The notes under the pieces were generated by a model. That model was not told the origin of the DNA. It did not search any database and saw nothing but the letters and a program-made list of their open reading frames with translations. Below are positions 40,968 through 41,831 of a DNA stretch of 44,304 bases, piece after piece; the stretch's first letter is position 1; each line of letters starts with the position of its first letter. The stretch is from contig NZ_WVUD01000032.1 in the NCBI RefSeq assembly GCF_009856865.1, positions 1 to 44,304 of the forward strand. Reading direction: 5' to 3'. The translations under genes were made by a program, and so were the position numbers. This DNA is from Solidesulfovibrio aerotolerans (GTDB lineage: Bacteria > Desulfobacterota > Desulfovibrionia > Desulfovibrionales > Desulfovibrionaceae).

Positions 40968-41020
40968 GTCGATTCTCCCTGGCGGTTGTCGCCCGGAGCC
41001 GGACCCCGGCTGCGCTTATG

Positions 41021-41053
41021 AAAAAGGGCCGCCGGGCGTGTTGCCCGCGGCCC
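41021..41053 (-). terminator. Attenuator terminator in the aldolase leader
   Basis: On the minus strand GGGCCGCGGGC (41053-41043) pairs with GCCCGGCGGCCC (41037-41026), with one bulged G and loop AACAC, followed by TTTTT (41025-41021). It lies 26 bases after the leader peptide stop and 53 bases before the aldolase start, so read-through is needed to express the gene. The 5' arm can instead pair with GCTCGCGGC inside the leader-peptide coding region (41112-41104) as an antiterminator. Confidence 0.8.
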
Positions 41054-41079
41054 CTGTCGGCGGAGTTTTCAGGTGCGGC

Positions 41080-41160
41080 TTACAAGGCCACACCACCCGC
41101 CAAGCCGCGAGCGCGAAAGCCGTAATAATAATAATACGGTCCGAAGCTGAGGATGCGCAT
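41080..41160 (-). CDS. Tyr-rich leader peptide for transcription attenuation (26 aa)
   Basis: A 26-codon frame begins MRILSFGP and is followed by five consecutive Tyr codons (TAT x4, TAC; 41136-41122), then GFRARGLAGGVAL and TAA. An in-frame ATG at 41181 would give 33 residues; neither start has a clear Shine-Dalgarno site. Five adjacent Tyr codons followed by an antiterminator segment and a rho-independent terminator are the hallmarks of amino-acid attenuation: scarcity of Tyr-tRNA stalls the ribosome on the Tyr codons, leaves 41112-41104 free to pair with the terminator 5' arm, and allows transcription into the aldolase gene. A -35-like TTGACG lies at 41217-41212 with only a weak -10. The mechanism is known for other amino acids; its use here is inferred. 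Confidence 0.8.
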   Translation of the reverse strand: MRILSFGPYYYYYGFRARGLAGGVAL

Positions 41161-41213
41161 GGCGGGCTGACGAGTTTGCATGGCGGCAAGGTAAACGCAA
41201 TTCGGGCGGCCCG

Positions 41214-41831
41214 TCAAGAGACTGTGTACCCGGAGTCCGTGTACCCGGAGTCCGGCGCGGCCGGAGTGGGAGCGACCGGGGCCGGGGATACCTGTCCCGG
41301 ATACGGCTGCCCCTGATACAGCTGGCCCGGATATGCCTGGCCCGGATAGGCCTGGCCCGCAGCGCCAGGGTTGGCCGGGGCTGGCGGGGAGCCGACCGGC
41401 GGTGCCGCCTGGGGATAGACCGGCACCATATACACAGAGCCCTGCGGCGCGGTTTGGGGATAGCCCGGCGGCAACGCCTGGGGAGCGCCCGGTGCGACGA
41501 GGCCTTCCTGGAGGATGGTCTGGGCGTCGCCCTGGGGGCCGGCCCCGGGGGTCAGGATGTTGCCCTCGGTGATGCCGGGCGTCCCCTGCCAGGATTGCTG
41601 CCAGTGCCCGGCTTGCGACTCGTAGCGTCTGGCCGCGTCACAGCGTCCGGCGCAGGGCGGGCAGGCGGCGTTGCACACTTGCGAAGGCACAATGTCGGTG
41701 ACCGTGCCGGTGTCAATGACGCAGACCTCGCGTCCGGCGGCGTCCACACAGGTGAAAAGGCCGTAGGCTTGCGCCTGTGTGGCCACGGCCAGAGTCGCGA
41801 GAACAACCAACGTACGCAGTATCAAGAGCAT
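41214..41831 (-). CDS. Secreted protein with Cys-rich head and Pro/Gly/Gln repeat tail (205 aa)
   Basis: A signal peptide (LLILRTLVVLATLAVATQAQA) precedes a small cysteine-rich part (residues 25-68: TCVDAAGREVCVID, then CNAACPPCAGRC) that resembles DUF4124-like secreted domains. The rest is low-complexity, with four AYPGQ-like repeats (about 165-185), encoded by imperfect 15-bp DNA repeats at about 41295-41355. The last residues repeat DSGYT (15-bp DNA duplication near 41224-41253). Probably a periplasmic or surface protein; its function is unknown. The candidate promoter of the attenuated aldolase gene overlaps its stop codon. Confidence 0.7.
   Translation of the reverse strand: MLLILRTLVVLATLAVATQAQAYGLFTCVDAAGREVCVIDTGTVTDIVPSQVCNAACPPCAGRCDAARRYESQAGHWQQSWQGTPGITEGNILTPGAGPQGDAQTILQEGLVAPGAPQALPPGYPQTAPQGSVYMVPVYPQAAPPVGSPPAPANPGAAGQAYPGQAYPGQLYQGQPYPGQVSPAPVAPTPAAPDSGYTDSGYTVS

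Follow-up and report, generated by a model that had tools for sequence, protein, structure and literature searches.

In Solidesulfovibrio aerotolerans, the gene for 2-amino-3,7-dideoxy-D-threo-hept-6-ulosonate synthase (ADH synthase) very probably lies behind a ribosome-mediated transcription attenuator that is tuned to tyrosine. The window (the whole stretch of DNA analysed, 44,304 nucleotides) contains a leader peptide ORF with a run of Tyr codons, followed by an intrinsic terminator whose 5' arm can also pair with a segment of the leader (Table 1).

Table 1. Features of the putative attenuator and of the gene behind it, in window coordinates.
Feature	Position	Strand	Basis or remark
Candidate promoter: -35 box TTGACG, 18-base spacer, weak -10 box TACCTT	41217-41212; 41193-41188	minus	box and spacing
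Leader peptide ORF, MQTRQPAMRILSFGPYYYYYGFRARGLAGGVAL	41181-41080	minus	33 codons and stop; predicted leaderless
Segment 1	41176-41155	minus	can pair with 41114-41094, hiding segment 2
Sensor, TATTATTATTATTAC, five successive Tyr codons (TAT x4, TAC)	41136-41122	minus	
Segment 2, antiterminator 5' strand, GCTCGCGGCT	41112-41103	minus	all 10 positions pair with segment 3
Inner antiterminator hairpin, with the leader stop codon inside it	41102-41058	minus	z -2.77
Leader stop codon	41082-41080	minus	
Intrinsic terminator: stem, then TTTTT	41054-41026; 41025-41021	minus	-26.3 kcal/mol for 41057-41021
Segment 3, terminator 5' arm, used by both antiterminator and terminator	41052-41043	minus	
Ribosome-binding site of ADH synthase, AGGGAG	40980-40975	minus	sequence; GGAG kept in the genus alignment
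ADH synthase, stand-alone isozyme	40967-40164	minus	TIGR01949

The leader ORF and its gene

The leader ORF sits on the minus strand between the gene of an exported-looking protein (41831-41214) and the aldolase gene that we assign to ADH synthase. An earlier sequence-only reading of this DNA had recognised the run of five Tyr codons, which stands, within a frame of 26 codons, which does not: the true start is 41181, giving 33 codons. We rejected the shorter frame, starting at ATG 41160, because this ATG is absent from all 12 other sequences of the genus, whereas ATG 41181 is common to them. Leader start, frame, Tyr run and stop are shared by 13 loci of the same genus, and changes in length ahead of the stop amount to whole Tyr codons. 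Five successive TAY codons have a single match in the whole 4,613,545-base (4.61-Mb) assembly, the window run itself, and a control pattern read backwards has two; given this uniqueness, we also rejected a chance origin of the run. Codon choice carries no argument. Seventeen Tyr-type leaders use TAT 49 times and TAC 20 times, and the aldolase stretches behind them TAT 4 and TAC 33 times, but seven other genes of the window, pooled, mix the two about equally (26 TAT, 28 TAC).

By curated cut-offs the aldolase is an ADH synthase. It scores 380.4 bits against the equivalog model TIGR01949 (cut-off, 299.45) and only 205.3 bits against NF040816, the archaeal-type class I fructose-bisphosphate aldolase (cut-off, 430), and on these scores we rejected a glycolytic aldolase. 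The sequence-only reading had claimed that control by Tyr-tRNA would settle the role of this enzyme as the first of the alternative dehydroquinate (DHQ) route rather than of glycolysis; the role holds, on the evidence of the protein family more than of the leader. The next genes downstream, bioD and bioA, are on the other strand.

A second ADH synthase of the genome, 65% identical, is located on contig C92. Its leader reads MQTLRNLTSGFYFWFWFSHARGLGGVRSN (Phe/Tyr/Trp), and behind it we read frames for DHQ synthase II, chorismate mutase/prephenate dehydratase, 5-enolpyruvylshikimate-3-phosphate (EPSP) synthase, prephenate dehydrogenase and trpE, the last also matched by a family model with a score under the model cut-off; trpC follows 9 kb downstream. 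Since this sister copy, at the head of an aro-phe-tyr-trp operon, has a Phe/Tyr/Trp leader, the two isozymes would answer different signals. When tyrosine is low, the Tyr leader probably turns on its gene, which encodes a spare first enzyme for the synthesis of aromatic amino acids.

Among the 59 genomes searched with the aldolase, 56 gave a match. An ortholog was found in 13 of 14 genomes of the genus, including that of the window; none came from G002, which is 69% complete. Solidesulfovibrio magneticus and S. alcoholivorans are among the named members. All 13 loci keep the frame, three to five successive Tyr codons, segment 2, the terminator and the stop, so that the conservation check proposed with the sequence-only reading, a Tyr run plus terminator in relatives, came out in its favour for 12 of the 12 other same-genus orthologs found and for three further lineages with Tyr-dominated leaders (L014, Fundidesulfovibrio; L021; L055). 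Of the 14 genus genomes, 12 hold both a Tyr-type and a Trp-bearing leader.

Leader codons and gene context

The 59 genomes, together with 80 named loci kept of 313, yielded 149 distinct ADH synthase-like genes with an identity of at least 50%. By our working rule 122 have a leader and 25 have none (four of these being second genes of tandem pairs); two lack upstream sequence. Leaders were classed as Trp-bearing (any Trp near the run), Tyr-type (at least three Tyr, at most two Phe, and more Tyr than Phe), Phe-type (at most one Tyr) or, for the rest, Phe/Tyr. Counted as genes, many of them closely related, rather than as events, Trp codons are present in 79 of the 84 leaders that have DHQ synthase no further than about 1.2 kb downstream and in 3 of the 35 that lack it (context unknown for three more). 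The 35 copies without DHQ synthase comprise 16 Tyr-type, 12 Phe-type, 4 Phe/Tyr and 3 Trp-bearing leaders.

The exceptions are Trp codons with no DHQ synthase nearby (L125, L129, L137) and DHQ synthase without Trp codons (L121, L150, L156, L159, L162). For the latter, no trpC match was found in the genomes of L156 (G021) and L162 (G025, 83% complete), and trpC is 31 kb away in that of L150 (G032) and on another contig in that of L159 (G016). Among Trp-bearing leaders that could be judged, trpC is within 13 kb downstream of 38 and elsewhere for 3; one more is in a genome without a trpC match (83% complete), and seven contigs end too soon. No trpC was found within this distance for the judgeable 14 Tyr-type, 3 Phe-type and 4 Phe/Tyr leaders. 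Three genomes (G014, G018, G037) have a Trp codon in the leader though trpC is elsewhere; in two of them, G018 and G037, a separate trpE is preceded by a Trp leader.

A quick tree of the 149 enzymes gathers the stand-alone Tyr-type copies, 16 in all, into a single group, whose SH-aLRT support of 94 falls just short of the starred level. Phe-type leaders arise at least twice, in one clade (98) and among the Humidesulfovibrio-type paralogs (clade 99), where four copies have Phe leaders and seven have none, and the sister operon copies read YWYYWF. Leader type requires 22 changes on the tree, compared with 59 when labels are shuffled. Where tandem ADH synthase pairs head an aro operon (L030/L048, L049, L050, L158), a leader was found before the first copy only. 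Two sets of stand-alone clades have no aromatic leader by our rule (L015, L017, L019, L020, L022, L066; and L034, L134, L146, L153).

The same attenuator might sense Phe, or general translation speed, instead of Tyr. Phe codons flank the window's Tyr run, one three codons before it and one two codons after, and another aromatic leader responds to Phe only: according to excerpts of PMC11802643 (citing Neshat 2014), the Corynebacterium glutamicum aroR leader (Phe-Tyr-Phe), located before aroF, responds to Phe and not to Tyr. Codons thus do not prove a response. Across the genus, however, the number of Phe codons near the run drifts between zero and two (zero in L010) while that of Tyr stays at four to five, and other stand-alone copies carry at least five Phe codons near the run (12 Phe-dominated leaders). 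We therefore regard a Phe or translation-speed sensor as unlikely, and tyrosine as the amino acid that is probably sensed.

Promoter, terminator and antiterminator

The window has a TTGAC box 36 bases ahead of the shared ATG. The distance is 35-40 bases in all 91 leaders whose in-frame ATG has such a box no more than 50 bases away (35 bases, 4 leaders; 36, 23; 37, 41; 38, 16; 39, 3; 40, 4), a spread that is somewhat too tight because our script, given several ATG or box options, chose the distance nearest 36. Outside this count are three leaders with a looser box at other distances (L050, L092, L124), three candidate frames with no box (L017, L066, L112), and two further frames that were set aside beforehand. 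Given the -10 box and normal initiation, the spacing would place the transcription start at or next to the ATG; no Shine-Dalgarno site was seen before the window's leader ORF, which is probably leaderless. A strict consensus scanner reported neither promoter nor terminator between 40940 and 41300, probably owing to a bulge in the terminator stem and to the weakness of the -10 box. The stop codon of the upstream gene overlaps the leader's -35 box; the short protein that this gene encodes carries YPGQ-type repeats and matched nothing in Pfam or NCBIfam.

The strong terminator noticed in the sequence-only reading was borne out: the stretch 41057-41021 folds with a z score of -4.14 (200 shuffles), its stem starting after 25 bases that separate it from the leader stop codon. 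By script, 84 of 94 leaders have a stem ahead of a T run, that of L084 being trivial. Between terminator and ribosome-binding site there is a GC-rich inverted repeat, GCCGGGGTCCGGC (41020-40981), with similar stretches in the genus alignment.

Segment 2 begins 9 bases past the Tyr run. The pairing with the terminator that the earlier reading had proposed for 41112-41104 holds and includes one base more, with all ten positions paired if G-U is counted. Of 94 leaders, 89 allowed a segment-2/segment-3 pair to be placed (10/10 in 70, 9 in 12, 8 in 4 and 7 in 3), taking as segment 2 the best-pairing stretch behind the aromatic run, a choice that favours pairing; in the other five, segment 3 could not be placed. 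In a swap control on one variable position, 33 of 34 unique pairs were paired; 1000 swaps gave 24.2 on average and never more than 29.

For a count without selection by pairing, we aligned 36 diverse leaders, hand-picked from those placed, with MAFFT. The antiterminator is paired in 98.6% of cells, as opposed to 36-44% when the strands are slid, and has double changes at four of its ten pairs (18 cells), with a covariation score matched by none of 500 shuffles. The most variable base, the seventh of segment 3, pairs with segment 2 in all 35 ungapped rows (U-A 16, C-G 13, U-G 5, A-U 1; one gap), whereas it can pair with the terminator 3' arm in no more than 6 of 36. A second count, over unique leaders, gave 55/55 and 11/55, respectively; it omitted one leader whose 3' arm could not be recognised and three with fewer than eight pairs (among them L113, which has C-A at this position). 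Segment 3 thus tracks segment 2 at a position that the terminator can do without, a pattern indicative of selection for the antiterminator. Within the genus alone the antiterminator hardly varies, and no compensatory change was seen in sequences too conserved for covariation.

The stretch between segments 2 and 3 folds more stably than shuffled sequences do: over 79 unique leaders its z score averages -2.0, and it lies below -1 in 57 of them and below -2 in 40. The alternative pairing of segments 1 and 2 was drawn from one member's own fold (L004), which favours it, and counted in genus sequences only: 89.4% of cells are paired in 12 distinct sequences, compared with 32-47% when slid. Two pairs changed on both sides, a number reached by 21 of 500 shuffles, and the covariation score was reached by 1 of 500.

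We built a covariance model, R1, on the switch core from 36 training rows that include the window site and the sister copy (E-values, 4.4e-15 and 4.8e-20). In 55 of the 59 genomes the best matches reach E 1.3e-8 or lower; three genomes have only weak ones (E 0.01-0.07) and one has none. Of 20 further sites, picked among the matches listed and not at ADH synthase, 14 have aromatic leaders; the other six (L210, L212, L213, L215, L216, L217) are plain terminators without a leader. These six, together with the absence of a promoter at the leader in the strict scan, are what could be expected if the window too had just a terminator between genes, a chance aromatic frame and an aldolase promoter further downstream. 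Against this stand the preservation of frame, run, segment 2 and spacing across many genera, the covariation specific to the antiterminator and the uniqueness of the Tyr run in the genome; we consider a plain terminator very improbable and rejected it on the covariation and the variable-base pairing counts. A T-box or other tRNA- or ligand-binding riboswitch is more improbable still: T-boxes control aromatic amino-acid genes in other phyla, but at the gathering threshold the only Rfam matches in the window were two tRNAs, 12 leader loci had none, and a loose threshold gave just two weak matches (E 0.11 and 0.24), so T-boxes and known Rfam leader families were rejected.

The proposed switch

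In the proposed attenuator, transcription would begin at or beside the leader ATG. With Tyr-tRNA scarce, the ribosome would stall on the Tyr run and leave segment 2 and the inner hairpin free; segment 2 would then pair with the terminator 5' arm, resulting in read-through into the ADH synthase gene. With plentiful Tyr, the ribosome would reach the stop codon inside the inner hairpin and break the antiterminator, so that the terminator could form. If there is no translation, the 1:2 pairing may hide segment 2, in this genus. The sequence shows the parts, their conservation and the covariation of the antiterminator; from these we infer the transcription start, the stalling, read-through and its response to tyrosine.

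Masked folding of the window leader gave an antiterminator probability of 0.99 with the last Tyr codon in the ribosomal A site, 0.19 with the stop codon there and 0.69 for the naked RNA. Of 86 leaders folded, 62 exceeded a probability of 0.5 when the last aromatic codon occupied the A site, 82 when the ribosome was stalled four codons earlier, 36 when it stood at the stop codon and 76 as naked RNA. The modelled effect is in the right direction on average, but not clean: since the stop mask leaves the antiterminator intact in 36 leaders, kinetics, the 1:2 pairing or a wider ribosome footprint must matter there.

Comparison with known attenuators

Attenuation by leader peptides is classical. In enteric trpL and pheL, a leader ORF with a run of codons for the controlled amino acid is combined with a terminator, a competing antiterminator and an alternative 1:2 pairing; the putative switch has the first three, and a 1:2 pairing is supported in its genus. 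It differs in using Tyr codons, in having segment 2 within the ORF and the stop codon within the antiterminator, in the lack of a visible Shine-Dalgarno site (the ORF is probably leaderless), and in serving a first-step enzyme rather than a terminal branch. What would be new is a Tyr sensor ahead of ADH synthase, and an aromatic switch core with exchanged sensor codons. We know of no earlier Tyr-specific attenuator; Vitreschak and colleagues are said to have worked on proteobacterial attenuators. Neither a Tyr-only attenuator nor an ADH synthase attenuator was recognised in searches of the open-licence PMC literature by terms other than the enzyme name; a term search of PMC4833913 gave nothing on either, and in the main text of Rodionov 2004 on delta-proteobacteria (PMC545781) the terms 'leader peptide', 'aromatic amino' and 'tyrosine' do not occur.

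The published systems closest to ours are characterised here from excerpts of the papers cited. The trpL and pheL attenuators are named in PMC11802643. The C. glutamicum aroR leader described there similarly attenuates the first enzyme of the aromatic pathway through a leader peptide with aromatic codons, but it serves a DAHP synthase in another phylum; we set it apart by its description, not its sequence. In Sinorhizobium meliloti trpL/rnTrpL, also an attenuator leader, the 5' end of the RNA is the ATG of the leader ORF (PMC7298713), a leaderless start that for the window is only predicted; unlike the window leader it has Trp codons and serves trpE(G). Its possible relative, we surmise, is the Rfam family Atu_C8, which scores 20.7 bits against the window (cut-off, 50). 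The uORFC-13-1 motif upstream of aroF in Acholeplasma (PMC8632094) is, like ours, a predicted uORF attenuator ahead of the first enzyme of the pathway, but has a U run with at least one Phe codon, a ribosome-binding site, and another enzyme and phylum.

In E. coli, the first-step isozymes AroF, AroG and AroH are allotted to different aromatic amino acids (PMC5343134) by feedback inhibition and repressors, whereas the isozyme split proposed here is read from leader codons. Leader peptides are a natural record of the amino acid that a gene answers to, and here this record would separate the two isozymes of the alternative dehydroquinate route. Together, the leaders suggest that Desulfovibrionales control aromatic synthesis through RNA.

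Related switches at other genes and in the wider phylum

Family models were run on 8 of the 14 genes behind the aromatic leaders picked with R1, and for trpE on two more; the remaining four (L201, L202, L203, L204) were judged by eye. At six sites, Phe-rich leaders with the same core precede a sodium:solute symporter of about 532 amino acids (L198, L199, L200, L201, L203, L204; that of L200 is Phe/Tyr). Trp-run leaders are located before trpE (three sites), a TrpB-like enzyme (one) and DctP genes of TRAP transporters (four: L202, L209, L211, L214). The leaders offer substrate predictions: phenylalanine or aromatic amino acids for the symporter, tryptophan for the TRAP transporters.

By its sequence, the window's putative switch is a member of an attenuator family whose core is kept while the sensor codons change with the gene served. 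On balance, we favour a single ancestral pan-aromatic attenuator of Desulfobacterota that was copied and retargeted by exchange of sensor codons, with isozymes, trp genes and transporters each reading their own amino acid. Tyr would then be read here, Phe at other stand-alone isozymes (with at least two origins there) and at the sodium symporter, Trp at trpE, the TrpB-like gene and the TRAP transporters, and all three at the aro operon. Such a family would mirror, at the level of RNA, how AroF, AroG and AroH divide their labour, would make the substrates of unnamed transporters readable from their leader peptides, and would include the first Tyr-specific attenuator known to us. It would also supply numerous natural replicates in which the exchange of a sensor run around a retained switch core can be studied.

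In the wider phylum we took the best 30 loci of 118 genomes. Leaving aside the window's own genome and a near relative, 21 of 28 have an aromatic leader, about half of them with another antiterminator motif (of the GGTCTGCCC type). For 9 of these 21 leaders the pairing arises in fewer than 1 in 20 shuffles, and 12 have a ribosome-binding site by a loose pattern. Many ADH synthase leaders outside the order (L170, L171, L172, L191 and others) have the antiterminator motif GGTCTGCCCAC with GTGGGCAGACC. A search of plasmids gave no match to the leader and one weak match to the window gene: an annotated ADH synthase on the Klebsiella michiganensis plasmid NZ_CP048110.1 (30215-30529), 66.5% identical over 30% of the query.
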